Assembly: GCF_000720115.1 (NCBI RefSeq)
Contig: NZ_JOIR01000001.1
Location: 248,001-312,000 of the forward strand
DNA length: 64,000 nt
From: Streptomyces sp. NRRL F-2580
GTDB taxonomy: Bacteria > Actinomycetota > Actinomycetes > Streptomycetales > Streptomycetaceae
Direction of reading: 5' to 3'
Position numbers and translations under genes: made by a program. The notes beneath the pieces were generated by a model. It was not told the DNA's origin. It did no database searches and saw only the letters and a list, made by a program, of their open reading frames with translations. Positions 15,873-55,001 of this stretch are shown one piece after another. Every line of letters begins with the position of its first letter. Position 1 is the first letter of the stretch.

Positions 15873-15983
15873 CCGACCAGCCTAGACAAGCCCGACACGA
15901 CCCCCGGCTTCGGCGTCCGGCCGCCGGGAACTGGAAGGGTGAAGCCACCGAAGCGCCGACCCACCCCCTGGGGGAACCTCGCG

Positions 15984-17351
15984 ATGACAGCATCCACGCC
16001 ACGCAGGGCCGTACTCGTCGCCGCACTCGCGGTCGCCACCGCGGCCACCGCCTCCGGTATCCCCGGCGGCAGCGCCTCGGCGGCCTCCCGGCCGACCCCG
16101 CGGGCAACGGGCCGCACCGTCGACAACCGCTTCTGGTACTCCCTCGCCCACTGGCAGGCCGGCACCCACCGGGGCACCACCGCCGTCGGCGGCGCCCGCC
16201 CCGGCCTGGAGATCGAGACCGCCGCCGGCCGCACCGAGTACGCCGACCCGCACACCGGGAGGAAGAGCGTCTGGGAGTACGCCACCTGGACCTCCCCGGT
16301 GCACCGCTCCACCGTGCCCGCCACCGAGGCGATCGCCTCCTGGAACGCCCGTACCCCGGCCGGCACCTGGATCCAGATCGAACTGCGCGGCACCTACACC
16401 GACGGCACCGCCACCCCCTGGTACGTGATGGGGCGCTGGGCCTCCGGCGACCGGGACATCCGCCGCACCTCCGTCGACGGCCAGACCGACGGGAAGTCCA
16501 CCGTCTGGACCGACACCCTCGCCGTCGACGCCCCGGCCGCGGCCGCCGGGCTGCGGATCAGGGACTGGCAGCTGCGTCTGACCCTGCACCGCAAGCCGGG
16601 CGCGGACCGCGGCCCCACCGTGTGGCTGGCGGGCGCCATGGCCTCCGACGTCCCGGACCGGTTCACCGTCCCCGCCTCCACTCCCTCCGGCCGTGCCCAC
16701 GAGCTGAAGGTCCCGCGCTACTCGCAGGAAACCCACGCCGGGCAGTACCCCGAGTACGACAACGGGGGCGAGGCCTGGTGCAGCCCCACCTCCTCGCAGA
16801 TGATCATCGAGTACTGGGGCGGCAAGGCCAGCGCCACCGCCCTGACCTGGGTGAACCCGAGGTACTCCGACCCGCAGATCTGCCACGCGGCCCGCTCCAC
16901 CTACGACGCCGCCTACAAGGGCTGCGGCAACTGGCCCTTCAACGCCGCCTACGCGGCCACCTACCGCGGGCTCGGCGGCGTCGTCACCCGGCTCACCTCC
17001 CTGACCGACCTGGAGATCCTGGTCGCGGTCGGCATCCCGGCCATCACCTCGCAGTCCTTCCGCCCGGAGGAGCTCACCGGCGCGGGCTACGGCACCGCGG
17101 GCCACCTGATGACCGTCATCGGCTTCACGGCCGCCGGGGACGTGATCGCCAACGACCCCAACTCGCCCGACAACCCGTCCGTCCGCCGCGTCTACAAGCG
17201 CGCCGAATGGGAGGCTATCTGGCTGCGCACCAAGCGCCACGGCACCTCCGGCAAGGTCGCCTCGGGCAGCGGAGGCATCTGCTACCTCTATGTGCCGGCG
17301 GCCCCGAGCGCGGCCCACACGGCGGCGCTGACGGCGGTCGGGGTGTTCTGA
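15984..17351 (+). CDS. Secreted C39-like cysteine peptidase family protein
   Basis: A 455-residue exported protein. It starts with a twin-Arg-containing signal peptide (TPRRAVLVAALAVATAATA), has an N-terminal beta-rich half (about 50-230) and a C-terminal papain-like fold of the peptidase C39 type. Candidate catalytic residues are Cys266 (GEAWCSPTSSQMIIEYW), His374 (GHLMTVIGF) and Asp391 (IANDPNSP). The ATG at 15984 follows GGGGGAAC; an upstream GTG at 15939 gives an atypical longer N-terminus. Streptomyces homologues are usually labelled peptidase C39 family protein; the substrate is unknown. No ABC exporter is adjacent, so it is not a bacteriocin-processing transporter. Confidence 0.85.
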   Translation: MTASTPRRAVLVAALAVATAATASGIPGGSASAASRPTPRATGRTVDNRFWYSLAHWQAGTHRGTTAVGGARPGLEIETAAGRTEYADPHTGRKSVWEYATWTSPVHRSTVPATEAIASWNARTPAGTWIQIELRGTYTDGTATPWYVMGRWASGDRDIRRTSVDGQTDGKSTVWTDTLAVDAPAAAAGLRIRDWQLRLTLHRKPGADRGPTVWLAGAMASDVPDRFTVPASTPSGRAHELKVPRYSQETHAGQYPEYDNGGEAWCSPTSSQMIIEYWGGKASATALTWVNPRYSDPQICHAARSTYDAAYKGCGNWPFNAAYAATYRGLGGVVTRLTSLTDLEILVAVGIPAITSQSFRPEELTGAGYGTAGHLMTVIGFTAAGDVIANDPNSPDNPSVRRVYKRAEWEAIWLRTKRHGTSGKVASGSGGICYLYVPAAPSAAHTAALTAVGVF

Positions 17352-21577: not shown

Positions 21578-21775
21578 GTCTCAGCGTCTGCCAGCCGTCT
21601 TGGGCTGGGCATAGGCCGCGATCAATCGCTACGCGCTTCGCTGGTCTCAGCGTCTGCCGACCGTCTTGGGTCGGACATGGGCCGCCACCGATCACTACGG
21701 GCTCCCCGCGTCTCAGCGGCTGTCGCCCGTCCTGGGCTGGGCACAGGCCGTCGCCCAATCCAGCCTCGCCGGCGT
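21578..21775. repeat. Three degenerate 66-bp tandem repeats
   Basis: Units begin with GTCTCAGCG at 21578, 21644 and 21710, each followed by a CTGCC-like segment, GTCTTGGG or GTCCTGGG, a GGCCG core and ATC-CTACG. Spacing is exactly 66 bases in both steps. Divergence of 15-25 percent by eye suggests an old array. Confidence 0.75.
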
Positions 21776-21813
21776 TTGAGGCGCGGGGGTCCGGGGGCGG
21801 CGCCCCCCGGCAG
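21756..21813. repeat. Dispersed Streptomyces intergenic repeat, copy A
   Basis: Contains AATCCAGCCTCGCCGGCGTT and TGAGGCGCGGGGGTCC followed by a GGGGGCGGCGCCCCCC palindrome. The same core, CCAGCC-CCGGCGTTTGAG, recurs twice in inverted orientation at 43752-43898. It is a half element without its partner arm. Confidence 0.75.
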
Positions 21814-40731: not shown

Positions 40732-41344
40732 GGCCCGCCTCCGTGAACCGCACCCGGACGCCGGGCGCGAACAGCGCCGCGGGCTCCCGCTCCGGGTCCC
40801 ACAGCACCGCGTCCGTGGAGCCGATCAGCTGCCAGCCGCCGGGGGAGGAGCGCGGGTACACCCCCGCGTACTCGCCGGCCAGCGCCAGCGAGCCCGCCGG
40901 GACGGCCGTCCGGGGCGTGTCCCGGCGCGGCAGGTGGAAGCGCTCCGGGAGCCCCGTCAGGTAGCCGAAGCCGGGGGCGAACCCGCAGAAGGCCACCCGG
41001 AAGCCGGTGCCGCCCACGATCCCCGGCACCTCCCGCGGGGACACCCCCCACCGCCGGGCCACCTCCGCCAGGTCCGGGCCGTCGTACCGCACCGGGACGG
41101 TGACCAGCGGCCCCTCCGCCTCCGCGAGCGCCGGCACCTCCCACCGGGCGATCCGGGCACCCAGCGCGGCCGGGTCCCGCACCCCGTCCAGCAGTACCGT
41201 CCGCGCGGCCGGCACGAGGTCCCGTACGGGCCCCAGCTCGCCCGCGTCCCGGCGGCGCAGCAGCTCGGCGTGGAGCGCGGCCACCTCCGCCGCCGAGTCC
41301 AGTTCGATCAACAGCGCCCCGCCGCCCACCACGAGCGGCCTCAC
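40724..41344 (-). CDS. pxpB: 5-oxoprolinase subunit B (KipI family)
   Basis: A 206-residue KipI/carboxyltransferase-domain protein: PVRYDGPDLAEVARRWGVSP, FCGFAPGFGYLTGLPERFHL, PRTAVPAGSLALAGEYAGVY and GGWQLIGSTD are the family hallmarks. It works with PxpA and PxpC in ATP-dependent ring opening of 5-oxoproline. The GTG at 41344 overlaps the pxpA stop by four bases (GTGA) and the gene overlaps pxpC by eight bases, so translation is coupled throughout. Because of the GTG start and overlaps it can be missed by start prediction. Confidence 0.93.
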   Translation of the reverse strand: MRPLVVGGGALLIELDSAAEVAALHAELLRRRDAGELGPVRDLVPAARTVLLDGVRDPAALGARIARWEVPALAEAEGPLVTVPVRYDGPDLAEVARRWGVSPREVPGIVGGTGFRVAFCGFAPGFGYLTGLPERFHLPRRDTPRTAVPAGSLALAGEYAGVYPRSSPGGWQLIGSTDAVLWDPEREPAALFAPGVRVRFTEAGHD

Positions 41345-42135
41345 GCGAAGGCCTCCACGCGGACCCCGGCCGCGCCCAGCGCCTCCCGGACCCGCCGCGC
41401 GAGCACGGCCGCCCCCGGGGTGTCCCCGTGCAGGCACAGTGAACGCGCGGCCACCCGGACCGACGAGCCGTCGGCAGCCACCACCGTCCGCACGGCGGCC
41501 ATCCGCACGGCCCGCGCCACGACCGCGTCCGGGTCGTGCAGCACCGCTCCCGGCTCGGTGCGCGGAACCAGCGTCCCTGCGGGCGTGTAGGCGCGGTCGG
41601 CGAAGGCCTCCGGTACGGCGGCCAGCCCGGCCTCGCCGGCGGCGGCGAGCAGGAGCGACCCGGGCAGTCCCAGTACGGGCAGGCCCCCGGTGGCACCGGA
41701 CCCGGCGGCCAGCCGGACGCCCGCGACCACGGCCGCGGCCTGGTCCCCGTCGTGCACGGTCCGGTTGTAGAGCGCGCCGTGCGGTTTCACGTACGACACC
41801 CGGGAGCCGGCCGCCCGCGCGAACACCTCCAGCGCGCCGATCTGGTAAGCCACCTCGTCCGCCAGCTCGGCGGCCGGGACGTCCATCGCGCGCCGTCCGA
41901 AGCCGGCGAGGTCGCGGTAGGAGACCTGCGCGCCGATCCGTACGCCCCGCTCGGCGGCCAGTTCGCAGACGCGGCGCATGATGGACGGGTCGCCGGCGTG
42001 GAAACCGCAGGCCACGTTGGCGCTCGTGACGACGGACAGCAGGGCCTCGTCGTCGGTGAGCGTCCAGCGTCCGAATCCCTCGCCGAGGTCGGCGTTGAGG
42101 TCGACCACCGCAGAGGATGCGATCATGGAATCCAT
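41341..42135 (-). CDS. pxpA: 5-oxoprolinase subunit A (LamB/YcsF family)
   Basis: A 264-residue LamB/YcsF protein with VVDLNADLGEGFGRWTLTDD, SANVACGFHAGDPSIMRRVC, VSYVKPHGALYNRTVHDGDQ and CLHGDTPGAAVLARRVREAL, all family hallmarks. First gene of pxpABC. The start is uncertain: ATG at 42135 or 42126; neither has a strong ribosome site, and the longer frame to 42216 runs into the divergent promoter region. The divergent SMC-cassette gene begins 100 bases away. Confidence 0.93.
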   Translation of the reverse strand: MDSMIASSAVVDLNADLGEGFGRWTLTDDEALLSVVTSANVACGFHAGDPSIMRRVCELAAERGVRIGAQVSYRDLAGFGRRAMDVPAAELADEVAYQIGALEVFARAAGSRVSYVKPHGALYNRTVHDGDQAAAVVAGVRLAAGSGATGGLPVLGLPGSLLLAAAGEAGLAAVPEAFADRAYTPAGTLVPRTEPGAVLHDPDAVVARAVRMAAVRTVVAADGSSVRVAARSLCLHGDTPGAAVLARRVREALGAAGVRVEAFA

Positions 42136-42235
42136 GCGCTGAGCGTAGAGCAGACGTCCCACGGTTCGGCCGGGGACGATCCGGCCGAACCATGCCGTTT
42201 GGGATGTTGTCAGCAACAGCGCCTAGTCTTTGTCC

Positions 42236-43741
42236 GTGACTCTCCCAGCCCCGGCGAAGACCCTCCCGTCCCCGGCGCCGGGCCCGGCCGCCGACGAGGG
42301 CCTGGCCCGGCGGCTGCGCGCCCTCGCCTGCACCGCTCCGCTGCACGACCTCGACGTACGCAAGGCCAATCTGGCGGGCGAGTACGGGATCTACGCGATG
42401 GCGGAGGTCGCGCTGGCCGCGATCGACCTCGTCACGCTCAACATGGACTTCGATACGGGCGCCGACCACGAGCAGATAGTAGCCAGGCTGCTGCCGCGCG
42501 TCGCGGCCCAGGCCCCCTCCCGCCCGGCGGCCGAGCACGAGCGGGTGGCCCGCTGGGTGCTGGAGAACCTGATCAACGTCGGCAGCGTCGACCGCGGCTT
42601 CCGCGCGATCTACGGCACCTTCGGCCCGGACGGCGTCTACGTCCGCCGTGACTACGACTTCAAGCTGATCGAAGAGGTCCCCGGCTACGGCGGCGCCGTC
42701 TACCTGCGCACCACCGACGAGGCCGTCAACGTCCTGGTCGGAGCCCTCGACACCGACGTCACCAGCGCCCAGATCGCCGCCGAGGTCAAGCTGGAGGTGC
42801 TGATCAGCCGCGGGCGGCTGGCGGACGCCCAGCTCGCCGCCGAGCAGGCCCGCTACCGGACCGTCCAGTACGCCGAGACCCTGCGCCGCACCCTGGACGC
42901 GACCCGGCGCAACGTACGGGCGGTGGACTGGCTGCAGGCCGTGCCCGACATGATCGCCGAGGCCCTCGACCACGTCGCCGACCGCTACCGCCACGAGAAC
43001 GCGATCCTGACCAACATCCGCAAGGCGCGCGACGAGGCCGAGGAGCCGGAGAACAAGCGCCGCGCCGCCGAGCTCGTCGACATCGTCAAGGACTGCATCC
43101 GCCGCCACACCCAGCTCCAGTCCCGGCTGCTGGACGCGGGCCCGCTGTTCCGTGCCGAGCAGGACCGCCAGGCCTTCGCCGCCCCGGCGCCGCGCTCCGG
43201 CATCGACCTGTACGGCCAGCTCGTGGCCCCGATCCTGCCGCTGCCCCTGGAGCAGGCGAGCCGGGTGACCGCCGCCTTCTTCGCCTCCGGCGCGGGGCTG
43301 CGCACACCCGTCTCGGTGCGGGTGACCGACCTGGTCGAGATCCTGCTCACCCCGCCCGTGGAGCGCGAGCACCTCGGCGCGGAGATGCCGGAGCCGGACC
43401 TCATCGCCACCCCGGACGACAGCCGCTTCAGCGAGGAGCAGCTCGCCGCCGCGAAGGAGCTCCTGGACCTCCCGCACGACGCACCGCGACGGCTGTCCGG
43501 GCTCCTCGCGCAGGCCCGCCGCAGCGATCCCGACCTGCCGTACCTGGTGGCCCTGCTGGCCGTCCACGCGGCGAGCCCGGCCGTGGGCACGGCGTACCGG
43601 CAGGGGGAGGAGCGGCTGCTCTTCGCGGTGGACGACGGCACGCAGCTCGACGACCCCGAGTTCGGCGGCGCCGACCTCATCGTCGGCACCGCCCTCCTCG
43701 ACGCCGCCGGCATGGCCGCGGACCGCGCGGAGGCGTCGTGA
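42236..43741 (+). CDS. MukF/JetA-like subunit of a condensin-type complex
   Basis: A 501-residue soluble protein: an N-terminal winged-helix-like segment (RKANLAGEYGIYAMAEVALA, about 40-65), a helical middle with long helices (ARYRTVQYAETLRRTLDATR, about 200-230) and a C-terminal domain with winged-helix character. Kleisin-like proteins of bacterial condensins (MukF, MksF, JetA) have this layout, and it starts a cassette with a small wHTH protein and a 1581-residue SMC-like ATPase. A -10-like TAGTCT at 42224-42229 places the transcript start at or near the GTG at 42236, so it may be leaderless; a TTG at 42230 is the other option. The assignment to MukF is structural inference. Confidence 0.7.
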   Translation: MTLPAPAKTLPSPAPGPAADEGLARRLRALACTAPLHDLDVRKANLAGEYGIYAMAEVALAAIDLVTLNMDFDTGADHEQIVARLLPRVAAQAPSRPAAEHERVARWVLENLINVGSVDRGFRAIYGTFGPDGVYVRRDYDFKLIEEVPGYGGAVYLRTTDEAVNVLVGALDTDVTSAQIAAEVKLEVLISRGRLADAQLAAEQARYRTVQYAETLRRTLDATRRNVRAVDWLQAVPDMIAEALDHVADRYRHENAILTNIRKARDEAEEPENKRRAAELVDIVKDCIRRHTQLQSRLLDAGPLFRAEQDRQAFAAPAPRSGIDLYGQLVAPILPLPLEQASRVTAAFFASGAGLRTPVSVRVTDLVEILLTPPVEREHLGAEMPEPDLIATPDDSRFSEEQLAAAKELLDLPHDAPRRLSGLLAQARRSDPDLPYLVALLAVHAASPAVGTAYRQGEERLLFAVDDGTQLDDPEFGGADLIVGTALLDAAGMAADRAEAS

Positions 43742-43751
43742 CCGCCGTCGC

Positions 43752-43898
43752 ATATCCAGCCCCTCCGGCGTTTGAGGAGCGGGGTCTGGGGCGGAGCCCC
43801 AGGAATCCCGGCTCCGCCGGGCACCGGGCTCTGCCCCGACCCTCCCCCAGCTACCGCTGGGAGGTGCCCCCTGCTCAAACGCCGGCGAGGCTGAATAT
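43752..43898. repeat. Inverted-repeat intergenic element between cassette genes
   Basis: Arms ATATCCAGCCCCTCCGGCGT-TTGAG (43752-43776) and its near-perfect reverse complement (43874-43898) flank about 97 bases with further hairpins (GGGGC-GCCCC, CCCAGC-GCTGGG). Related half elements occur at 21756-21813 and about 27275. It resembles a non-autonomous miniature element or a spread intergenic repeat; no terminal target duplication is evident. Confidence 0.8.
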
Positions 43899-44057
43899 GG
43901 CGGGTCGCCCGGCGCTCGCGTGGGCGTCGGGCCGGGCCCGCCTCGGGGCGCGGGGGCCTGCCCCCGCCGGACAGAACCCGGCCGCCGCCGAAGCCGCCGG
44001 CACCGCCCGTACACCCCATACCGCCCGAACCACCCGCACTGCCGAGGAGACCCACCC

Positions 44058-44957
44058 GTGAGCGACCACCACGCCGAGCACCCCGCGTGGAGCGAGCCCG
44101 CGGCTCCCGCCACCCCCGTCGCGGCCGCGAGCCCGGCGGTGACCCCCGCCGACGCCGCCGACGCGGCCCGGCTCGTCGCCTTCGGGCTGCAGCCCAAGCT
44201 GCTCCCCGCCCGTGACGCCGAGTACGCCGAGCTGCTGCGCCGCTACCGCGAGGAGCCCGCCTTCGGCCGCCTCGCCGACGCCGTCGCCACCGGCCTCGGC
44301 CTCGTCGTCCTGGAGGTCTCCCCGCGCGCCGGCATGGCCGTGGCAGCCGGCGAGGACTCCGTCTTCGCCGTCCGGATGGGCGACTACGCCCGCCGCACCG
44401 CCGCCGACTCCGCCGACCGGTTCCTGCACGGCCTGGCCCACCTCGCCGTCGCCGCCCTCGCCTTCCCCCGCCCGGAGGACCTCGCCGACGACGGCTACAT
44501 CGGCCGCATCACCGTCAACGGCGTCGACTCCTTCGTCCGGCAGACCTGCCGCCGCCTGGAGGAGTGCGCCGAGGAGATCGGCGAGAACACCGACCCGGCC
44601 TCCGACGCCCCCGGCCTGGAGGCCGCCTGGCGCGTCTACTCCCGCCGCAGCGCGACGGGTGCCACCAAGGACGCCCGCCGCCTCGCCGGCTCCACCACCG
44701 GCATCGTCGGCAAGGCCGCCGCCTTCCTCACCGACTCCGGTTTCCTCCAGCGCACCGGCGACGAGTCCGGCGGCACCTACCGCACCACCCCGCGCTATCA
44801 GCTCCAGGTCCGCGACATGGCGGGCAGCGCGGCCATGGCCGAACTCCTGGAACTCGGCGTGGTCCCCGTCAGCGACGGCTCCGCCACCCTCCTGCCGCCG
44901 CCCGAGGGCGACGACCTGGACCTGGCCGCCGATGCCGGGCTCCCCTTCCACGCCTGA
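44058..44957 (+). CDS. MukE/JetB-like subunit of a condensin-type complex
   Basis: A 299-residue acidic protein. After a disordered 40-residue head it has winged-helix-like domains (LARDAEYAELLRRYREEPAF region near 55, RFLHGLAHLAVAALAFPRPE, KAAAFLTDSGFLQRT-GDES about 225-245). MukE-type proteins bind the kleisin and regulate the SMC head. GTG at 44058 follows GAGGAG. It lies 316 bases after the MukF-like gene because of the inserted repeat, and 54 bases before the SMC gene. Recognition is by position, size and fold-like features; sequence similarity to MukE is not obvious by eye. Confidence 0.65.
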   Translation: MSDHHAEHPAWSEPAAPATPVAAASPAVTPADAADAARLVAFGLQPKLLPARDAEYAELLRRYREEPAFGRLADAVATGLGLVVLEVSPRAGMAVAAGEDSVFAVRMGDYARRTAADSADRFLHGLAHLAVAALAFPRPEDLADDGYIGRITVNGVDSFVRQTCRRLEECAEEIGENTDPASDAPGLEAAWRVYSRRSATGATKDARRLAGSTTGIVGKAAAFLTDSGFLQRTGDESGGTYRTTPRYQLQVRDMAGSAAMAELLELGVVPVSDGSATLLPPPEGDDLDLAADAGLPFHA

Positions 44958-45011
44958 GCCACCCGTCCTCCGTACGCCCTGAGCCACCAGACACCACGAG
45001 AGTCCGCCGCC

Positions 45012-48000
45012 ATGTACGAGCTGTCCCGGATCCGCCTCTACTCCATCGGGCCCGCCGGTGCGCGCTACGCCGACACCGTGCTCGACCTGCGCGGAGTCGG
45101 CGAGCCGGTGCCCCACCCGGCGCCGGCCCAGGCGGAGTTCTTCGAGGACGAGCCCACCGGTCCGCCGCGCCGCCCCGCGCCCGCCGGCGTGCTCTTCCTG
45201 GAGAACGGGGGCGGCAAGTCCGTCCTCCTCAAGCTGATCTTCTCGGTGATGCTCCCCGGTCACCGCAACACCCTCGGCGGCGCGAGCTCCGGCGTCCTGC
45301 GCAAGTTCCTGCTCGCCGACGACTGCGGCCACGTCGCCCTGGAGTGGCAGCACACCCAGACCGGCGAGTGCGTGGTCGTGGGCAAGGTCAGCGAATGGCG
45401 CGGCCGCCAGGTCTCCAACGACCCGCGCAAGTTCGCCGAGGCCTGGTACTCCTTCCGCCCCGGCCCCGGTCTGAGCCTCGACAGCCTGCCCGTCGCCGAG
45501 GCCACCGCCGTGCGCCCGCCCGTCGAGGGCGCCTCCGGCGCCCAGGGCCGCCGCCGCACGATGAAGGGCTTCCGCGACGCGCTCACGGAGGCCGGCAAGG
45601 CGTACCCGCACCTCGAGGTGTACTTCGAGGAGATCCACGACCGCTGGAACGAGCACCTCACCGAGCTCGGCCTCGACCCCGAACTCTTCCGCTACCAGCG
45701 CGAGATGAACGCCGACGAGGGCGAGGCGGCCGGCCTCTTCGCGGTGAAGAAGGACTCCGACTTCACCGACCTCCTGCTGCGCGCCGTCACCGACACCCGT
45801 GACACCGACGGCCTCGCCGACCTCGTCCACGGGTTCGGCAACAAGCTGGGCCGCCGCGCCGAGCTCATGGCCGAACGCGACTTCACCGCCGGCTCGGTGG
45901 ACCTGCTCACCAAGATCGTCGAGGCCGCGGGGGCCCGCTCCCGGCTGCGCGACGTCCACGCGGGCGCGGAACGCCGTACGCGCACCCTCGCCCGGCGGCT
46001 GTCCGCCCGCGCCGCCGAGGAACGCGGCCGCGCCGCCGACCTCGCCCAGCGGGTCACCGCCGCCGCCCACCAGGTCACCGCCGCCGACTCCGCCCGGGCC
46101 CGCAGCGCCGCCGTCTCCGCCGAACTCGCCTACCGGCACGCCTCGCTGGCCCTGACCGTCGCCGACAAGGCCGCCGCCGCCCAGCGCCGAGAGCTCCTCG
46201 AAGCCCGCACCCTGCACTCCGCGTGGCAGGCCGCCGAGATCGTGCTGCGCCACCGCGCCGCCGCCGACCGCTCCGCCCGCGTCGCCGCCGCGATCCTGGA
46301 GGCCGAGCGGGACGCCGCCCCCGCGCTCGCCGCGCGCGCCACGGCTGCCGCCGACCTCGTACGGGCCCTGCACACGGCCGCCGAACAAGGCGAGCGGGCC
46401 GCCGACGAGGAGGAGGAGCGCTCCGCCGAGCTCCATTCCGTCGGCGAGAGCGCCCACCGCGATGCCACCGCCGCCGCCACGGCCGCCCAGCGGGCCCGCA
46501 GCGAGGCCGAACACCTCCGCTCGCGCCTCGCCGAGGTCCAGCAGGAGACCGCCGAGGCGGTCCGGGCCGGCTGGCTCGACGACTCCGCCCCCGACGCCGA
46601 CCCGGCGCGCGCGGCCCTCGCCGCCACCGACGCCGAGAAGACCGCGGTGGCCGCCTGGGACGAGGCCCGGGACGCCGCCCGCGCCGCCGCCGAAGCCGCC
46701 CGCGAGGCCGCCGCCGCGGAGTCCCGCGCCGAACTCACCGCCGCCCGCGCGGCGGACGCCGCCGAGGCGGCCGAGGCCGCGCACGACGCCGAATACCGTG
46801 CGGCGGCCTCCCTCGCCGCCTCCCCCCGCCTGGCCGAACTCCTCGGTCTGCCCTCGGTTCCTGCCTCCTTCCTTCCCCACCCGCGCACGCAGAGCGGCGC
46901 CTCCGGCCCCTACGCGGGATCCGCCGCCCAGGCTGCCCAGGCCGCGTCGGCCGAGGTGGCGCACGGCTCCGGCGGGCACGGTCCGGCCCAGGCCGGGCCC
47001 GCCGGCCGCCCCGAAACCGCCGGAGGCGGCGGCCTCACCGTCGCCGACCTCGACCGGAACGCCGACGACCTGCGCACCCTGCTCACCGACGGGGTCGCCG
47101 CGGCCGAACGCCAGCTGTTCGAGCTGCGCACCGCCGCCGCCGACGACTCCCGCATCCTCGGCGCGCTCGGCGACGGCGGCCTGCTGCCGCCCGGCCCCGA
47201 CGTCCTCGCCACCGTCGAGTACCTCGGCGAGCACGGCATCCCGGCCCTCCCCGGCTGGCGCTACCTCGCCCAGTCCGTGGACCCCGCCGACCACGCCGCC
47301 GTCCTCGCGGCCCGCCCCGAACTCGTCGACGGCGTCGTCATCACCGACCCCGACACCCACAGCCGGGCCCGCGAGGTCCTCTCCTGCGCCGCCCTGCTGC
47401 CCCGCTCCACCGTCGCCGTCGGCACCGCGGCCGCCCTGCTGGCGCCCGTACCGCCCGCGGCCGACTCCGACACCGCCGTGTTCCTCGTACCGCCGAACCC
47501 GGCCATGCACGACGAGCACGCCGCCGACGAGGAGCGCCAAGCGCTGCGCACGCGGGCCGGCGCCCGCGACACCGAGATCCGCGAGCTCGCCGCCCGCCTC
47601 TCCGGCGACCGCGAACTCGCCGCCCGCCTCGCCTCCTGGCGCACCGGTTGCCCGCCCGGCCGCCTCACCGAACTCGCGGAACAGGCCGCGGCCGCCCGCG
47701 CGTTCGCTGAGGAGACCGACGCCGAGCTCGCGCAGGCCCGTACCGTACGCGCCGAGGCCGACGAGGCCGCCGCCGACGCCGCCCGCGTCCGCGAGGAGCG
47801 CCAGGACACCGCCCAGCGCGCCCGCCGCGTCGCCGACGCCCTCGCAGGCCTCGCCTACCGCCTGCGCGAGCGGGCCGGCTGGCAGGCCAGGCTCCGCGAA
47901 CTCGCCGACGAGGCCGCCGAGTCCGAGGCCCGCGCCGAGATCTGCCTGGACCGCGCCCGCGCCGCCGACGAGGACCGCCGTGCCGCCCAGCGCGCCGCCG

Positions 48001-49757
48001 ACGACGCCCGCCGCACCGCCCGCGCCCTGCGCGCCGAGCGAGCCGAGATCGCCGGCGCCCCCGACCAGCTGCCCGACGCGGACGGGGACGGCCCGCGCGC
48101 GCCCCTCCCGGACCTCCGCGAGGCCTACCGCGCCGCCTCCCAGCTCTACGAGAAGGTGGGCGTCGGCGCCGACCTGCGCGCCGAACAGGCCCGCGCCGAG
48201 AGCGACGAGAGCGCCGCCCTCGCCGAACTCGACCGCCTCACCAACAAGGTCCGCACCCGCGCCGCCCAGCTCCTCGAAGGCACCGACGGCGCCGACGGCC
48301 CCTCCCGGCAGGCCGCCGCCGCCCGCGCCGAGTCCCTCGTGCAGATGCTGGAGACCCGCGCGTCCACGGCCAGCGAACAGCTCGGCCGGCTGCGCGGCGA
48401 GGCCGAGCGGCACGCCCCCGCCGAGGGCGAGGCGCACACCGAACTGCCCGAGGAACTGGTCCCCGGGAACGTCGAACAGGCCCAGGCCCTGCTCCGTACG
48501 GCCACCGCCCAGCTCGCCGCCCACACCGCGGCCGTGGAGAGCGCCCGCGCCGCCCACGCGGACCTGCTGCGCGACCACCGCACCGCCGAGGACGGCGCCG
48601 GCGGCTTCGACGAGACCGCCGCCCTGCTGCGCGACCTCCTGCGCGACCACACGCACGCCGAGGACGAGCAGGAGCCGGCGCCCCACCCGGGCACCCTGGA
48701 GGAGGCCCGCCAGTCGGCCACCGAGGCCCGCCGCTCCCTGCGCAGCTGCGCGGCCGACCTCTCGGCCGCCGAGGCCGCGGTGCGCGAGGCGAGCGACATC
48801 CTGGTCCGGCACGCCAATTCCACCCGCTACGAACAGGTACGCACCCCCGCGCGCCAGCAGATCCGGGAACTGCCCGCCGCCGCCCTGCCCGAGCACGCGG
48901 CGGCCTGGGCGGCGGCCTTCGCCCCCCGGCTGCGCGTCCTCACCGACGAGCTGGCGCAGCTGGAGCGCAACCGCGACAGCATCGTCGACCGCCTGCGCGG
49001 CCTCGTCGAGTCCGCCCTGGCCACGCTCCGCTCCGCGCAGCGCCTCTCCCAGCTCCCCGAGGGCCTGGGCGAATGGTCGGGCCAGGAGTTCCTGCGGATC
49101 CGCTTCGAGGAGCCGGACCAGGCCACGCTCACGGAACGGCTCGGCGAGGTCATCGACGAGGCCACCCGCGCGGCCGTGAAGAAGAACAGCACGGCCTCCT
49201 TCGGCGAGGGCCGCCGCGACGGCATGTCCCTGCTGCTGCGGGGCGTCCAGGCAGCGCTCGAACCCAAGGGCATCTCCGTGGAGATCCTCAAGCCGGACGC
49301 GGTGCTGCGCGCCGAACGCGTCCCCGTCGGCCAGATGGGAGACGTGTTCTCCGGCGGGCAGCTGCTGACCGCCGCGATCGCCCTCTACTGCACGATGGCG
49401 GCGCTGCGCAGCAACGACCGGGGCCGCGACAAGCACCGGCACGCGGGCACGCTGTTCCTCGACAACCCGATCGGCCGCGCGAACGCCACGTACCTGCTGG
49501 AGCTCCAGCGGGCCGTCTCCGACGCGCTCGGCGTCCAACTGCTCTACACGACGGGTCTGTTCGACACCACGGCGCTCGCCGAGTTCCCGTTGGTGATCCG
49601 GCTGCGCAACGACGCGGACCTGCGGGCGGGTCTGAAGTACATCAGCGTCGAGGAACACCTCCGTCCGGGCCTGCCGCAGCAGTCCCCGGAGGAGGAGACC
49701 ATCCACGGCGAGATCACGGCCACCCGCATGTTCCGCCGCAGCGGCGCCCCTTCCTGA
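45012..49757 (+). CDS. SMC/MukB/JetC-like ATPase, 1581 residues
   Basis: Large SMC-type protein: N-terminal ATPase half with Walker A ENGGGKSVLLKLIF (Lys69), two long Ala/Arg/Glu-rich coiled coils (about 300-640 and 830-1330), a globular hinge-like domain (about 675-830, LGEHGIPALPGWRYLAQSVD) and a C-terminal half with signature FSGGQLLTAAIALY (1446-1459) and Walker B TLFLDNPIGRAN (Asp1484, Asn1485). It should pair its heads, bind the MukF/MukE-like partners and embrace DNA. The Walker B Glu is replaced by Asn. The coding bias is extreme Ala/Arg GCC/CGC. Its antisense frame of 2109 codons is a shadow. No JetD/MksG gene follows. Confidence 0.88.
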   Translation: MYELSRIRLYSIGPAGARYADTVLDLRGVGEPVPHPAPAQAEFFEDEPTGPPRRPAPAGVLFLENGGGKSVLLKLIFSVMLPGHRNTLGGASSGVLRKFLLADDCGHVALEWQHTQTGECVVVGKVSEWRGRQVSNDPRKFAEAWYSFRPGPGLSLDSLPVAEATAVRPPVEGASGAQGRRRTMKGFRDALTEAGKAYPHLEVYFEEIHDRWNEHLTELGLDPELFRYQREMNADEGEAAGLFAVKKDSDFTDLLLRAVTDTRDTDGLADLVHGFGNKLGRRAELMAERDFTAGSVDLLTKIVEAAGARSRLRDVHAGAERRTRTLARRLSARAAEERGRAADLAQRVTAAAHQVTAADSARARSAAVSAELAYRHASLALTVADKAAAAQRRELLEARTLHSAWQAAEIVLRHRAAADRSARVAAAILEAERDAAPALAARATAAADLVRALHTAAEQGERAADEEEERSAELHSVGESAHRDATAAATAAQRARSEAEHLRSRLAEVQQETAEAVRAGWLDDSAPDADPARAALAATDAEKTAVAAWDEARDAARAAAEAAREAAAAESRAELTAARAADAAEAAEAAHDAEYRAAASLAASPRLAELLGLPSVPASFLPHPRTQSGASGPYAGSAAQAAQAASAEVAHGSGGHGPAQAGPAGRPETAGGGGLTVADLDRNADDLRTLLTDGVAAAERQLFELRTAAADDSRILGALGDGGLLPPGPDVLATVEYLGEHGIPALPGWRYLAQSVDPADHAAVLAARPELVDGVVITDPDTHSRAREVLSCAALLPRSTVAVGTAAALLAPVPPAADSDTAVFLVPPNPAMHDEHAADEERQALRTRAGARDTEIRELAARLSGDRELAARLASWRTGCPPGRLTELAEQAAAARAFAEETDAELAQARTVRAEADEAAADAARVREERQDTAQRARRVADALAGLAYRLRERAGWQARLRELADEAAESEARAEICLDRARAADEDRRAAQRAADDARRTARALRAERAEIAGAPDQLPDADGDGPRAPLPDLREAYRAASQLYEKVGVGADLRAEQARAESDESAALAELDRLTNKVRTRAAQLLEGTDGADGPSRQAAAARAESLVQMLETRASTASEQLGRLRGEAERHAPAEGEAHTELPEELVPGNVEQAQALLRTATAQLAAHTAAVESARAAHADLLRDHRTAEDGAGGFDETAALLRDLLRDHTHAEDEQEPAPHPGTLEEARQSATEARRSLRSCAADLSAAEAAVREASDILVRHANSTRYEQVRTPARQQIRELPAAALPEHAAAWAAAFAPRLRVLTDELAQLERNRDSIVDRLRGLVESALATLRSAQRLSQLPEGLGEWSGQEFLRIRFEEPDQATLTERLGEVIDEATRAAVKKNSTASFGEGRRDGMSLLLRGVQAALEPKGISVEILKPDAVLRAERVPVGQMGDVFSGGQLLTAAIALYCTMAALRSNDRGRDKHRHAGTLFLDNPIGRANATYLLELQRAVSDALGVQLLYTTGLFDTTALAEFPLVIRLRNDADLRAGLKYISVEEHLRPGLPQQSPEEETIHGEITATRMFRRSGAPS

Positions 49758-49819
49758 CGCACGGCAGGTGACGCCGGCCCCGCCCTGCCCGCCGCAGGCG
49801 AGTGGCGGCAGGTCGGGCG

Positions 49820-50269
49820 TCAGCGCGTGACGTACGGCCCGGAGGCGGCCAGGTGGCCGTCCTCGCGGGGTATTCGGCCCGGGGCGGCCTCGCGCGCCCT
49901 GCGGGCCGCCCTGTGGGCCTCGCGGCGGCGCCGGCGCGCGGTGCTGCTCGGCTCCGAGAGGACCCCGTACCGCTGGTTCCACGTCTGCCGGGTGATCCAC
50001 ACGTCCAGCACGCCCCACGTGGCCACGATCGTCCCCGCGATCGCGCAGAGCGCCATCGGCAGGGCCAGCCAGGACCCGGTCAGGGTCAGGAAGAACGTGA
50101 TCGTCGCCTGGGTCAGGGTCACCGCCACGATCACCACCGCCCGCACCGCGGAGGTCCGCACCGGATCGGGCATCCGGAGCCGGCGGGCCGGCTCCTCCAC
50201 CCACAGCCCCTGTCCCGCCACCCCTGCGTACGCGCCCGAACCCGCCCCGCCGGCCTCGTCATTCCACAT
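49820..50269 (-). CDS. Two-helix membrane protein, function unknown
   Basis: A 149-residue protein with a Gly-rich N-terminus, two membrane helices (VVIVAVTLTQATITFFLTLT and ALPMALCAIAGTIVATWGVL, about 50-95) and a basic C-terminal tail (RRRRREAHRAARRAREAAPG). ATG at 50269 preceded by GGGAGCG; the longer frame to 50287 adds six residues without a better site. It is convergent with the SMC gene (62 bases between stops). No family recognised; the arginine-rich tail suggests contact with nucleic acid or lipid head groups. Confidence 0.72.
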   Translation of the reverse strand: MWNDEAGGAGSGAYAGVAGQGLWVEEPARRLRMPDPVRTSAVRAVVIVAVTLTQATITFFLTLTGSWLALPMALCAIAGTIVATWGVLDVWITRQTWNQRYGVLSEPSSTARRRRREAHRAARRAREAAPGRIPREDGHLAASGPYVTR

Positions 50270-50656
50270 GGTCCGCTCCCTCCCCACGCCGCGGTCCGCC
50301 TTGTCTACTCACCACGTCTACCCCCGACGCGGCTCTCGAACTGACAGACGTCCGACGGCGCCGGGAGATTCCCGGATCGTGGAAATCTCCACGGCCCCGC
50401 GATGATCGCGGAACGAACAATTCCAGCCATCCATCAGGTTGCGGGAATTGACGCCCCACCAAGTGTCATCTGCCACATATCGGGCCGCGGTTGACCGGAA
50501 GTGTCGGACAACTGGTGATCTTCGTACAGGGGTCGGGCCGAAAACGTCCGGACACGCCTTCGAACCTGCTCCAGAGCAGTAGTAGGCTCACGCCGTTTAA
50601 ATGACGGAACACCGACCCCCGGTAACGGGGTTGACCTGGGGGAGGCTGGGGAGGCC
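50270..50656. other. Divergent intergenic region before cvnA
   Basis: The 387 bases contain no gene. They hold a possible cvnA promoter (50559-50588) and a small hairpin ACCCC-CGGTAAC-GGGGT at about 50611-50627 close to the ribosome site. The interval 50430-50560 is AT-richer than average. Confidence 0.5.
50559..50588 (+). promoter_or_regulatory. Possible cvnA promoter
   Basis: TTCGAA (50559-50564) and TAGGCT (50583-50588) with an 18-base spacer, 68 bases before the cvnA start. The -10 box fits HrdB-type promoters; the -35 is weak. Confidence 0.35.
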
Positions 50657-53479
50657 ATGCGCTTTCGCGGGAAGTCCATCCGCCGGAAGATCGTGGCGTT
50701 GCTCCTTGTGCCGCTCGTCTCCCTGACCGCGCTCTGGGGCTTCGCCACGGTCATCACCGGCCGTGAAGCGATCCAACTGTTCGACGTGGCCTACGTCATC
50801 GACAAGGTCGGCTACCCGATCGAGGACGTGGCCCGCGTCATCCAGAAGGAACGGCGCCAGACCCTCGTCGTCCTCGGCGACCCCCGGGCCGCCACCGCCA
50901 CGGCCGAACTCACCAGGCGTCGCGCCGAGACCGACGAGGCCGTCGAGGCGATCAGCGTCAGCGCCCGCGACCCCAAGGTCATCGACGAGCTGAGCTCGCA
51001 GAGCGCCCAGCGCCTGCGCTCGATCGTCTCGGCCTTCCAGGGCATCGGCTCCATGCGCCGCTCCGTCGACCAGAACGCCCTGGACCCCACCCAGGCCCTG
51101 GAGCTGTACAACCGGCTCGTCGACCCCTGCTACGACTTCCTCATGAACCTCCACGGCCTCGACAACGTCGAGGTCGACAAGGAAGGCCGCGCCCTCGTCG
51201 GCATCAGCCGCGCCCGCGAACTCCTCTCCCGCGAGGACGCCGTCGTCGCCTCCGCCCTCGCCGCGCGCAACGTCACCGCACCCGACGTGCGCCACGTCTC
51301 CGACTTCGCCGCCAACCGCACGCTGCTCTACGAGTTCAACCTCGTGACCCTCCCCGCCGACGACCGGGAGCGGTTCGAGCGGTACTGGAACGACCCCGAG
51401 ACCAAGCCCCTGCGCGACGCCGAGGAGCGCTTCATAGCCGGCGGCGCGGTCAACAAGCCGCGCAGCGTCACCGTCGCCCAGTGGGACGAGGCCTCGGCCA
51501 AGGTCCTGGACGACCTGGCGGCCATGAACACCGCCGCCGGTGACCGCTACCAGGAGCGCATCGAGCCCGTCGCCAGGGACGTCATGGTCCAGGCCGCCGC
51601 GGCCGGCATCCTCGGCTTCCTCGCCCTGATCGTGTCCCTGATCCTCTCCGTACGCATCGGCCGCGACCTGGTCCGCGACCTGTCCCGGCTGCGCAAGGAG
51701 GCCCACGAGGCCTCCGGCGTCCGGCTGCCCAGCGTGATGCGCCGCCTCGCCGCCGGCGAGCCGGTGGACGTGGAGACCGAGGCGCCCCACCTCGAATACG
51801 AGAAGGACGAGGTCGGCCAGGTCGGCCAGGCCCTCAACACCCTCCAGCGCGCCGCCGTCGAGGCCGCCGTCAAGCAGGCCGACCTGCGCCGCGGCGTCTC
51901 CGAGGTGTTCGTCAACCTGGCCCGCCGCAACCAGGTGCTGCTCCACCGCCAGCTGACGCTCCTCGACACCATGGAACGCCGCACCGAGGACACCGAGGAG
52001 CTCGCCGACCTCTTCCGCCTCGACCACATGACCACCCGCATGCGCCGCCACGCCGAGGGCCTGGTGATCCTCTCCGGCGCCGCGCCCTCCCGCCAGTGGC
52101 GCAAGCCCGTCCAGCTGATGGACGTCGTACGGGCGGCCGTCGCCGAGGTCGAGGACTACGAGCGCATCGAGGTGCGCCGGCTCACCCGCCTGGGCATCGT
52201 CGGTCCCGCCGTCGCCGACATCACCCACCTCATCGCCGAACTCCTTGAGAACGCCACGGTGTTCTCACCGCCGCACACCGCGGTCCAAGTGCACGGCGAG
52301 CGCGTGGCGAACGGTTTCACCCTGGAGATCCACGACCGCGGCCTCGGCATGACACCGGAGGCGCTGCTCGACGCGAACCTCCGGCTCGCCGAGACCCCCG
52401 AGTTCGAACTCTCCGACACCGACCGCCTCGGCCTGTTCGTCGTCAGCCGCCTCGCCCAGCGCCACAGCGTCAAGGTCGTCCTCCAGCCCAGCCCGTACGG
52501 GGGTACCACCGCTGTGGTCTTCCTCCCCGTGGCACTGCTCACCGAGGCCCCCGAGACCAATGGCAACGGCGTGCGCCTCGACGGCCCCCGCGCGGCCGCC
52601 AAGTCCGTACGGGCCGGCGGGCCCACGCCGGTTGGCCGGACCCCGTCCGAGCGGCCCGTGCCGGTCGCGGTGGAGCGCGCCGCTTCCGGCCGCCCGCTGC
52701 CCGTCGCCGAACTGCGCGGCCCGGTCGAGCTGGAGGCCCCGCTCGTGGGCCGCGGCCTGGACGGTCTGGACCCGCTGGACGGCCTCGACGACCCCGCCGC
52801 GCTGGACGACACCGCGGCCGGGATCGCGGGCCGCCCCGCCGCCGGCCGCCCCGTCATGGCCACCCTCGACGACGAGACGCCGCCGAACGGCACCCCCCGC
52901 AGCGCCCTGCTGGGCCTGCGCCCGGCCGAGCGGCCGCACACGGACCGGCACACCGAACGCAACGGCGCCCGCAAGGGCGACCGCGACCGCGAATCGCTCG
53001 CTCCCACCGGCCCCGTCCGGCTGGAGACCCAGCGCGTGGAGGCCTCGCGATCCGACGGCCCCCGCCCCGCGGGAGCCGTACCGCTGCCGCGCCGCCGCCC
53101 CACGCCGACCCTGGTGGCCGAGCACGGCCGCCGGGTGGAGCGTCCGGTGTCGGTGGTGCCGCAGCCCACCCCCGCCTCCGCGGCCGGATCCGGTGACACG
53201 GACCCCGCACCCGGCCCGGGCACCGGCGGGCTTCCCCGCCGGGTCCGCCAGGCCAGCCTGGCACCCCAGCTCAAGAAGTCCCCGTCCGCCGCACCCGCCG
53301 AAGCCGCCACTGACCAGGGGGCCGACCGCGACGCGGAAGACGTACGTACGCGCATGTCCGCACTCCAGCGTGGCTGGACGGCGGGCCGCAACCAGCACGC
53401 ACCGCAGCAGTCCGAGACCGAGGCAGGCACCTCCGCCGCCGGCGGTCCCGGATACGAGAACGAAGGGGACGGTCGATGA
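50657..53479 (+). CDS. cvnA: Conservon protein CvnA: membrane sensor with NIT, HAMP and kinase-like ATPase domains
   Basis: A 940-residue sensor: first membrane helix (IVALLLVPLVSLTALWGFAT, about 11-31), extracellular nitrate/nitric-oxide-sensing-type domain (about 50-310), second membrane helix (AAAAGILGFLALIVSLILSV), HAMP linker, a coiled-coil with NLARRNQVLLHRQLTLLDTM, and a HATPase_c domain (IAELLENATVFSPPHT as N box, DRGLGMTPEALLDAN as G1 box). The last 300 residues are Pro/Arg/Ala-rich and disordered. CvnA with CvnB-D forms a membrane-bound signalling complex resembling a eukaryotic G-protein system. It lacks a paired response regulator. ATG at 50657 after GGGGAGG; its stop overlaps cvnB by ATGA. 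Confidence 0.93.
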   Translation: MRFRGKSIRRKIVALLLVPLVSLTALWGFATVITGREAIQLFDVAYVIDKVGYPIEDVARVIQKERRQTLVVLGDPRAATATAELTRRRAETDEAVEAISVSARDPKVIDELSSQSAQRLRSIVSAFQGIGSMRRSVDQNALDPTQALELYNRLVDPCYDFLMNLHGLDNVEVDKEGRALVGISRARELLSREDAVVASALAARNVTAPDVRHVSDFAANRTLLYEFNLVTLPADDRERFERYWNDPETKPLRDAEERFIAGGAVNKPRSVTVAQWDEASAKVLDDLAAMNTAAGDRYQERIEPVARDVMVQAAAAGILGFLALIVSLILSVRIGRDLVRDLSRLRKEAHEASGVRLPSVMRRLAAGEPVDVETEAPHLEYEKDEVGQVGQALNTLQRAAVEAAVKQADLRRGVSEVFVNLARRNQVLLHRQLTLLDTMERRTEDTEELADLFRLDHMTTRMRRHAEGLVILSGAAPSRQWRKPVQLMDVVRAAVAEVEDYERIEVRRLTRLGIVGPAVADITHLIAELLENATVFSPPHTAVQVHGERVANGFTLEIHDRGLGMTPEALLDANLRLAETPEFELSDTDRLGLFVVSRLAQRHSVKVVLQPSPYGGTTAVVFLPVALLTEAPETNGNGVRLDGPRAAAKSVRAGGPTPVGRTPSERPVPVAVERAASGRPLPVAELRGPVELEAPLVGRGLDGLDPLDGLDDPAALDDTAAGIAGRPAAGRPVMATLDDETPPNGTPRSALLGLRPAERPHTDRHTERNGARKGDRDRESLAPTGPVRLETQRVEASRSDGPRPAGAVPLPRRRPTPTLVAEHGRRVERPVSVVPQPTPASAAGSGDTDPAPGPGTGGLPRRVRQASLAPQLKKSPSAAPAEAATDQGADRDAEDVRTRMSALQRGWTAGRNQHAPQQSETEAGTSAAGGPGYENEGDGR

Positions 53480-53913
53480 CCGCACCGCAGACCGGCAACG
53501 ACACCAGGGGCCGCGGCTCCGGCCCGCTCAACTGGCTCCTCGACGAGCTCGTCGACCGGGTCGGCTCCATCCGCAAGGCGGTGGTCCTCTCCGGCGACGG
53601 CCTGCCCACCGGCAGCTCCAAGGACCTGACCCGTGAGGACAGCGAGCACCTGGCGGCCGTGGCCTCCGGTTTCCACAGCCTGGCCAAGGGCGTGGGCCGG
53701 CACTTCGACTCCGGCCGGGTCCGCCAGACCGTGGTCGAACTCGACGAGGCCTTCCTCTTCGTCATGGCCGCGGGCGACGGCAGCTGCCTGGCCGTGCTGG
53801 CCGACGCCGACTCCGACGTCGGGCAGGTCGCGTACGAGATGACGCTGATGGTCAAGCGAGTGGGCGACCACCTGGCGACCGCCCCGCGCACCGGGCTGCC
53901 AGCCGGAGGGTGA
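53476..53913 (+). CDS. cvnB: Conservon protein CvnB: roadblock/LC7 domain
   Basis: A 145-residue roadblock/LC7 protein (LNWLLDELVDRVGSIRKAVV, LSGDGLPTGSSKDLTREDSE, FLFVMAAGDGSCLAVLADAD). In the Cvn system it is a small regulator that interacts with the CvnD GTPase, as MglB does with MglA. It overlaps cvnA by four bases and is followed ten bases later by cvnC. Length and motif order are standard. Confidence 0.95.
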   Translation: MTAPQTGNDTRGRGSGPLNWLLDELVDRVGSIRKAVVLSGDGLPTGSSKDLTREDSEHLAAVASGFHSLAKGVGRHFDSGRVRQTVVELDEAFLFVMAAGDGSCLAVLADADSDVGQVAYEMTLMVKRVGDHLATAPRTGLPAGG

Positions 53914-53923
53914 GTCGTACGGC

Positions 53924-54394
53924 ATGAGCGATTCAGGCCAGGACCACTCCACCGACACAGACACCGACATCGCCGCCGGCTTCGGCTTCCCCGTCGACCC
54001 GTCGGCCGACGGCGCCGACCACGCGCACTGGTTCGACGACGACGCGGGTCCCGTCGTACGCCCGTACGCCATGACCCGCGGCCGGACCAGCCACGCGGGT
54101 CAGCACCGCCTTGACCTGATCGCGCTCGTCGTCGCCGAAGCGGCGGCCGACGATCCGGTCTGGGACATGACCCTCTCCCCGGAACACGCCCACATCCTCG
54201 GGCTGTGCCGGGGCCGACCTCAGTCGGTCGCCGAACTCGCGGCCGACCTCGACCTCGCGGTCGGGGTCGTACGCGTCCTGATCGGCGACCTGGTCGACGA
54301 GGAACTGGTCCACGTGACCAGGCCGGTACCACCGGCCGAACTGCCCGATGAATCCATTCTGCGTGAGGTGATCGATGGCCTTCGGGCGCTTTAG
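53924..54394 (+). CDS. cvnC: Conservon protein CvnC: DUF742
   Basis: A 156-residue protein with an acidic head and the DUF742 domain (VVRPYAMTRGRTSHAGQHRL, DLIALVVAEAA, ILGLCRGRPQSVAELAADLD, LAVGVVRVLIGDLVDEELVH), a winged-helix-like fold ending in RPVPPAELPDESILREVIDG. It belongs to the Cvn complex between CvnB and CvnD. The gene overlaps cvnD by 20 bases. Confidence 0.95.
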   Translation: MSDSGQDHSTDTDTDIAAGFGFPVDPSADGADHAHWFDDDAGPVVRPYAMTRGRTSHAGQHRLDLIALVVAEAAADDPVWDMTLSPEHAHILGLCRGRPQSVAELAADLDLAVGVVRVLIGDLVDEELVHVTRPVPPAELPDESILREVIDGLRAL

Positions 54395-55001
54395 CCGCAC
54401 CGGTGCCATGCACGCGGTGTCGCCGGTCGAACCGCTGACCTTGAAGATCCTGGTCGCGGGCGGCTTCGGGGTGGGCAAGACCACCCTGGTCAGTGCGGTC
54501 AGCGAGATCAGACCGCTGCGCACCGAGGAACGGCTCTCCGAGCCGGGCGTCGGTGTCGACGACACCGGGGGAGTGGAGGGCAAGAGCACCACCACCGTGG
54601 CCATGGACTTCGGGCGCATCACGCTCCGCGAGGACCTGGTGCTGTACCTGTTCGGCACGCCCGGGCAGGACCGCTTCTGGTTCCTGTGGGACGAGCTGGC
54701 CCAGGGCGCGCTCGGCGCCGTGGTCCTCGCCGACACCCGCCGCCTCGCCGACTGCTTCGCGGCCGTCGACTACTTCGAGCGGCGCGGGATCCCGTTCGTG
54801 GTCGCGGTCAACTGCTTCGACGGCGCCGACCGGCACCCCGTGGTGACCGTACGGACGGCACTCGACCTCGACCCCGGGGTACCGGTGCTGCTGTGCGACG
54901 CACGCGACCGGGAGTCCGTGAAGGACGTACTGGTGGGGGTCGTGGAACACGCGATGTCCCTGGCGCGCGAGCGGCGCCGGAGCCTCTCGGCAGGGGCCTG
55001 A
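54375..55001 (+). CDS. cvnD: Conservon protein CvnD: small Ras/MglA-like GTPase
   Basis: A 208-residue GTP-binding protein with P loop GGFGVGKTTLVSAVSEI (Lys35), switch region with SKSTTTVAMDFG-like sequence (KSTTTVAMDFGRITL), G3 motif FGTPGQDRFWFLWDE and a guanine-binding segment VVAVNCFDGADRHP. It is the output GTPase of the conservon, expected to switch with CvnB and CvnA at the membrane. Start ATG at 54375 lies inside cvnC (20-base overlap). No cvnE or P450 gene follows, unlike some conservons. Confidence 0.95.
   Translation: MAFGRFSRTGAMHAVSPVEPLTLKILVAGGFGVGKTTLVSAVSEIRPLRTEERLSEPGVGVDDTGGVEGKSTTTVAMDFGRITLREDLVLYLFGTPGQDRFWFLWDELAQGALGAVVLADTRRLADCFAAVDYFERRGIPFVVAVNCFDGADRHPVVTVRTALDLDPGVPVLLCDARDRESVKDVLVGVVEHAMSLARERRRSLSAGA

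Follow-up and report, generated by a model that had tools for sequence, protein, structure and literature searches.

The Kleisin-KITE-SMC Cassette

Streptomyces sp. NRRL F-2580 carries a three-gene cassette whose products resemble the DNA motor of a type III Wadjet system. It lies in the window analyzed here, a stretch of 64,000 nucleotides (nt) of contig NZ_JOIR01000001.1 (positions 248,001-312,000; the assembly has 156 contigs and an estimated completeness of 100%), and its genes are called A, B, and C below. Gene A (42236..43741, plus strand) encodes a MukF-like kleisin, JetA3, of 501 amino acids, with a GTG start at 42236 and a possible TTG start at 42230. Gene B (44058..44957, plus strand) begins with GTG, has a GAGGAG upstream as judged by eye, and encodes a protein of 299 amino acids with the tail DAGLPFH, probably a KITE, or tandem winged-helix, protein like JetB and MukE. 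Gene C (45012..49757, plus strand) begins with ATG and encodes a structural maintenance of chromosomes (SMC)-type ATPase, JetC3, of 1581 amino acids with the motifs GGGKS (Walker A), FSGGQ (signature), and LFLDNP (Walker B). An earlier note, made from the DNA letters before any database search, had described three same-strand genes of these kinds at these coordinates, and PADLOC bears it out for A and C, with B a probable KITE.

What kind of complex do these genes specify? A matches the PADLOC model of the type III Wadjet kleisin JetA3 (PDLC00567) with 620 bits, and C matches that of the type III Wadjet SMC ATPase JetC3 (PDLC00588) with 1392 bits, and these sequence matches place the two proteins in those families. 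B has no sequence family match in family-model scans, nor do two scanned B proteins from JetD-bearing operons; the B proteins of such operons are 30-52% identical to the window B. Because A and C match JetA3 and JetC3 and the orthologues at the core loci of other Streptomyces are about 78-97% identical, the three genes are not chance open reading frames (ORFs). Pfam and NCBIfam hold no MukB, MukE, or MukF model, and no Smc or Scp model, that A, B, or C matches at E <= 1. By sequence, the nearest named relatives are type III Wadjet proteins and not MukBEF or MksBEF in the strict sense. The earlier note's call of a Muk-, Mks-, or Wadjet-type complex therefore stands as regards the kleisin, KITE, and SMC set and needs narrowing as regards the first two names.

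The predicted folds may point toward the Muk proteins. In Foldseek searches, with chain identity judged from titles and lengths and no E-value below 0.001, rows 1 to 5 for the model of A were MukF entries and rows 1 to 3 for the model of B were a MukE-MukF entry; the fold matches of B to MukE and JetB entries had modest scores. MukF-like and MukE-like folds for A and B are supported, though not proven, by these models. Searches of the PDB with single sequences (A and C) and with profiles (A, B, C, and the end of C) returned coiled-coil or chance matches, such as an Smc coiled coil (5xg2) at E 0.056.

SMC ATPases usually carry a catalytic Glu after the Walker B Asp. The Walker B motif of C (window 49452-49469, residues 1481-1486) has an Asn there, as does every JetC3 protein seen, with or without JetD. 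The possibility that the Asn marks the version without a nuclease was considered and rejected, since 11 of the 11 JetD-bearing SMCs in the alignment have it too. Residues about 600-680 of C form a low-complexity, poorly conserved insert in the Streptomyces SMC that is mostly missing from the other aligned JetC3 proteins. As for B, its DAGLPFH tail (window 44931-44954) is conserved and follows a variable acidic linker. Among the 120 best homologues, 119 have GLPFH and one has ALPFH, and LPF is present in 33 of 33 core loci; the tail was not seen in the aligned B rows from Frankia, Amycolatopsis, or JetD-bearing operons. It is a possible docking peptide. No motif separating JetD-bearing from JetD-less proteins was apparent by eye at the N terminus of B, where type I JetB has a reported JetD docking motif.

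Distribution of the Cassette and of JetD

How widespread is the cassette? A phylogenetic profile across Streptomyces, a check that the earlier note had suggested, found JetA3 in 147 of 150 genomes (146 of the 147 good ones), JetC3 in 147, and one or the other in 149. Of the three genomes lacking JetA3, the fragmented G050 and G073 have JetC3 and G079, which is 78% complete, has neither. In the Streptomycetaceae, JetA3 is found in 100 of 101 genomes, and at least one JetA3 that is not beside JetD3 is found in 99 of the 101 and in 16 of 17 genera. The cassette is a core locus of nearly all Streptomycetaceae. In a sample of the class, JetA3 is present in 43 of 296 genomes and 5 of 114 genera, namely, Streptomyces and four genera of one family; a scan of named genomes identified this family as the Frankiaceae (the locus L116, the same as L080, is that of Candidatus Frankia meridionalis). 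The earlier note's suggestion of a complex specific to Streptomyces does not survive these counts, as Frankiaceae, Amycolatopsis, Prauserella, and Haloechinothrix also have related cassettes without JetD. One Streptomyces genome assembled as a single contig (G012) has its JetA3 match 1.2 Mb away from its JetC3 match (G012:C1:5735607, 6929967), as if a rearrangement had split the cassette.

The locus is also fixed in position. Of the 24 core loci examined, the window included and one wrong region (L099) left out, 18 have in the same stretch the pxpA-like gene that lies upstream in the window, 16 have the gene for the small membrane protein that lies downstream, and 22 have at least one window neighbor. 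Window neighbors were found near 0 of 11 JetD-bearing loci and 0 of 15 JetD-less Frankia loci. The signature and Walker B motifs are intact in all 24 core SMCs and Walker A in 22, the remaining 2 being broken ORF calls. The ratio of nonsynonymous to synonymous substitution rates (dN/dS) is 0.060-0.195 for core pairs (21 estimates, from seven pairs and three genes), a sequence signal that shows the core cassette to be under purifying selection. The corresponding values are 0.016-0.091 for two JetD-less Amycolatopsis pairs, 0.13-0.34 for one JetD-less Frankia pair, and 0.13-0.30 for two JetD-bearing pairs.

Compared with type III Wadjet systems, the cassette has the same order, A-B-C, and the same PADLOC kleisin and SMC families, and the A proteins of JetD-bearing Streptomyces operons are 30-52% identical to the window A over the best segment. 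It differs in having no jetD, in occupying a fixed locus with its own neighbors, and in the usual gap between A and B. The core SMC has 1516-1623 amino acids when intact, compared with 1478-1582 in JetD-bearing type III copies. At core loci the A-B spacing runs from -4 to 730 bp and the B-C gap, at loci with an intact C, from 11 to 124 bp; in JetD-bearing operons the genes mostly overlap by a few bases. A wider A-B gap is nevertheless unreliable as a sign of JetD loss, for a short overlap is also found in at least 7 core Streptomyces loci and in most JetD-less Amycolatopsis loci.

Where, then, is the nuclease? JetD is absent from the cassette's locus, in agreement with the earlier note. The Pfam model PF09983 (JetD_C) has no match in the whole genome, and it overlooks many type III JetD proteins, including one in this genome. 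A JetD3 profile was built from 11 JetD proteins, each encoded in a second, JetD-bearing copy of a Streptomyces or Frankia relative. Its rows have invariant Glu-Asn and Asp-x-Asp residues, taken as the TOPRIM motif; PADLOC labels four checked JetD proteins, three of them profile rows, as JetD3; and in the PDB the profile reaches MksG (8b7f) with no better than E 0.021. The sole match to it in this genome (here G000) lies on contig C42 (G000:C42:29758-30795), so that a search for a JetD-like gene elsewhere, as proposed in the earlier note, did yield one. It is the fourth gene of a separate operon, L074 (L074:2717-10686), a second and diverged four-gene type III Wadjet whose A, B, and C proteins are 30%, 34%, and 39% identical to those of the window (best segments).

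Across the 150 Streptomyces genomes, PF09983 matches 18 and the JetD3 profile 14 (12 strongly); 9 are matched by both and 23 by either. Neither finds a JetD in the other 127, which include 124 of the 147 genomes with JetA3. All 12 genomes with a strong JetD3 match, this one included, carry at least two JetA3 matches, and the remaining genomes with a second JetA3 match, G128 and G141, have short fragments only. In nine Streptomyces operons that were read, jetD lies 3' of the C gene of the second copy (the C gene of L020 being a broken ORF), and the coordinates in G022, G090, and G094 agree with a jetD in the second copy. In G090, matches to JetA3, JetC3, and JetD3 lie at both ends of the linear chromosome (G090:C1:8873-16700, 9222617-9230261), probably in terminal inverted repeats. 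No JetD match in the 23 JetD-positive genomes, some of which are fragmented assemblies, shares a contig with the core kleisin gene at a distance of 20 kb or less. Among 35 Frankiaceae genomes, 6 match JetD3; two of these matches are partial, and one of the two comes from G313, whose own cassette (L080) lacks JetD. The type III copies that carry JetD stand apart from the core locus and are accessory.

Named relatives extend the picture. A Frankia kleisin retrieved 80 named loci, in 67 of which the C ORF runs to a stop codon and is followed by 1.2 kb or more of sequence. Sixty-three of the 67 have no JetD, including 41 from Amycolatopsis, 7 from Streptomyces, 6 of Frankia type, and 5 from Prauserella, and four have it (L132, L143, L146, L186). 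In a quick tree of A and B (109 rows, with near-copies removed and core rows thinned), the 24 Streptomycetaceae rows form one clade and the 19 Frankiaceae rows another, each with a Shimodaira-Hasegawa-like approximate likelihood ratio (SH-aLRT) of 100. The JetD state changes at least four times on this tree, three without L186 (98 rows, 15 of them JetD-bearing, contig-cut rows excluded). How many losses there were, and in what order, is unsure, since the tree leaves several deep forks unresolved and brings long branches together.

In L186, from Amycolatopsis rifamycinica, jetD (15671-16753) separates C from the gene that directly follows it in 11 near relatives. The sequence DSAEDEQPA, with which C usually ends, now stands immediately after jetD, and C itself has a different tail. 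DNA homology to A. iheyensis ends at 15671 and restarts at 16756, and the G+C content at third codon positions is 0.80 in jetD versus 0.94 in C. A retained ancestral jetD was considered and rejected in favor of insertion on account of the displaced tail and the difference in base composition. A foreign jetD was thus inserted into a disarmed cassette, at the 3' end of its SMC gene, a gain of the nuclease that would have re-armed it; the nuclease is therefore likely to be a removable module.

A Probable Second Condensin and Its Alternatives

What might a Wadjet motor be doing without its cutter? The reading that we favor, and hold to be moderately probable, is that the cassette is a type III Wadjet motor that has lost JetD, that vertical descent has made it a core locus in nearly all Streptomycetaceae, and that it probably acts as a second housekeeping condensin beside Smc-ScpAB. 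The ancestor would have been a complete type III Wadjet, JetABCD, inherited vertically after the loss of JetD. The kleisin A, the KITE B, and the SMC ATPase C would form a MukBEF-like complex that loads on DNA and uses ATP to extrude or bridge loops. In the absence of JetD, loops would still be extruded and no cutting would follow, and the complex could help to compact or segregate the linear chromosome alongside Smc-ScpAB. Loop extrusion is suggested by analogy with the family, as JetABC and MukBEF are described as dimeric, ATP-driven loop extruders and JetD as a cutter triggered on small circles (PMC10586767). The distribution of the cassette and the missing cutter point to chromosomal rather than anti-plasmid action.

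A second condensin is the best explanation because the motor is near-universal, syntenic, and found beside Smc-ScpAB. The latter belongs to the same condensin class and is present in the same genome but has an unrelated locus, with the canonical ScpA on another contig (G000:C37), so the earlier note was right to set the cassette apart from it. Enterobacterial MukBEF offers a likeness, a three-part kleisin, KITE, and SMC complex without a nuclease, and entries for MukF and MukE lead the Foldseek lists of A and B. It differs in that the cassette has no MukB, MukE, or MukF model match, belongs to another lineage, and coexists with Smc-ScpAB. MksBEF of Pseudomonas aeruginosa presumably represents a separate loss of the nuclease in another subfamily; in contrast to it, the Streptomyces cassette is nearly family-wide and a relative has regained a nuclease.

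Several observations weigh against a second condensin. The core cassette seems missing from G454, the sole sampled genome of genus g125, in which a single weak JetA3 stands beside JetD3 (G454:C101:2438-10066), and in Frankiaceae the distribution is patchy, with JetA3 in 19 of 35 genomes, so the cassette is not indispensable everywhere. A highly divergent JetD could slip past a profile built from relatives. The kleisin model is weak, with a predicted local distance difference test (pLDDT) score of 65 and a predicted template modeling (pTM) score of 0.35, and the Foldseek E-values for A and B all lie above the mark of 0.001 given earlier. In VIA, MukF entries top the list for A at 13.9, with CorA next at 12.4, and B scores 7.9, with LmrR at 8.1, all in the range that the tool calls common. 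The PDB searches with sequence profiles (A, B, C, and the C-terminal part of C) brought up neither a kleisin nor the head of an SMC complex. Any ATP hydrolysis by the JetC3 family would have to do without the usual Glu, which the Asn of LDNP replaces in JetD-bearing relatives too. In Streptomyces venezuelae, the reported phenotypes of smc deletion are mild: loss of smc is described as abolishing arm alignment, yet even the smc hupS double mutant is called "rather mild," and no mutant is said to form anucleate spores. A second condensin would agree with this mildness, which fits redundancy without showing it (PMC8410768).

Could the cassette instead act against mobile elements without cutting them, sensing plasmids or integrating elements by loop extrusion and then blocking them, silencing them, or lowering their copy number? 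We regard this as rather unlikely, even though the nearest relatives are type III Wadjet systems. The cassette is retained near-universally and in synteny, unlike the accessory JetD-bearing copies. Streptomyces also carry small, circular, high-copy plasmids such as pIJ101. JetABC is described as conferring the sensing of shape and size (PMC10586767), and the Mks system of Corynebacterium glutamicum as influencing plasmid copy number (PMC10123090). The same sources count against this idea, however: plasmid suppression in Bacillus subtilis required all four subunits, and C. glutamicum mksG mutants behaved like mksB mutants (PMC10586767, PMC10123090).

A defense system that borrows a nuclease encoded elsewhere, either JetD in trans or an unrelated enzyme, is improbable. 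The earlier note had raised an effector elsewhere as an option, and this genome does encode one JetD3; moreover, the gain of jetD by the A. rifamycinica cassette suggests that the motor may still accept one. That JetD3 belongs, however, to its own diverged operon, with a kleisin only about 30% identical, and in most JetA3-bearing Streptomyces genomes neither search found a JetD, as counted above. Nor did the JetD-less loci of Streptomyces, Frankia, and Pseudonocardiaceae have a neighbor cluster in common among the clusters listed (the 40 largest at most, from stop-to-stop frames on both strands, many of them spurious). That the cassette is the decaying remnant of an old defense island is scarcely credible. 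The missing JetD, and the gaps at many core loci where JetD-bearing operons overlap, would suit decay, but intact motifs, a dN/dS of 0.06-0.2, and the fact that 149 of 150 genomes have A or C already contradict it.

Beyond the second condensin, a wider proposal can be made tentatively, at slightly less than even confidence. The nuclease of Actinomycetota type III Wadjet may be a plug-in module, with JetABC disarmed more than once, one disarmed version established in nearly all Streptomycetaceae as their second, core condensin, and one re-armed in A. rifamycinica. The Streptomyces version would organize the linear chromosome and may account for the tolerance of smc loss, and DAGLPFH would be the docking site for a partner that replaces JetD.

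How does this compare with what has been published? A DefenseFinder survey describes Wadjet as enriched in Actinobacteria and toward Streptomyces chromosome ends, and in the portion available this locus is not singled out (PMC10482375). Papers on Hi-C and smc in Streptomyces name Smc-ScpAB as the Streptomyces condensin in their available portions (PMC8410849, PMC8410768, PMC13121528). Searches of open-license literature, mostly at the level of titles and the beginnings of abstracts, turned up no paper on a core complex of Streptomyces that is Wadjet-type without JetD or MukBEF-like, and the idea that the S. coelicolor genes lie near SCO1631-SCO1634 led to nothing there. New here are the core status of the cassette, the absence of any JetD match in most genomes, the separate JetD-bearing copy in 12, the related JetD-less cassettes elsewhere, and the insertion of a foreign jetD in A. 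rifamycinica. If the favored reading is right, the core genome of Streptomyces, a model for sporulation and for the biology of linear chromosomes, includes a second condensin of which the published Hi-C and smc/hupS deletion studies, as far as their available portions go, make no mention, and the mildness of the smc hupS double mutant (PMC8410768) becomes a directly testable question. Armed, disarmed, and re-armed versions of one motor would also provide a natural series on the conversion between chromosome-organizing and DNA-destroying SMC complexes.

Surroundings of the Cassette

The neighbors of the cassette are housekeeping or regulatory genes, the context that the earlier note had reported. 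Upstream lie a carboxyltransferase gene and, divergent from the cassette, the pxpA-like LamB/YcsF gene (41341..42144, minus strand; PF03746). The next gene downstream is convergent and outside the operon, again as first described: it encodes the small, syntenic membrane protein (49820..50287, minus strand), with two hydrophobic stretches by eye. Farther downstream, at 50657-54998, are genes for a NIT histidine kinase, Roadblock, DUF742, and ATP_bind_1 proteins, which we take to resemble a conservon set. An Rfam scan of 41500-50800 gave no match. The A-B spacer (43742..44057, 316 bp) contains a repeat at 43760-43784 that has a second copy, with 3 mismatches, at 21764-21788, and 100 shuffles gave 0 such matches.

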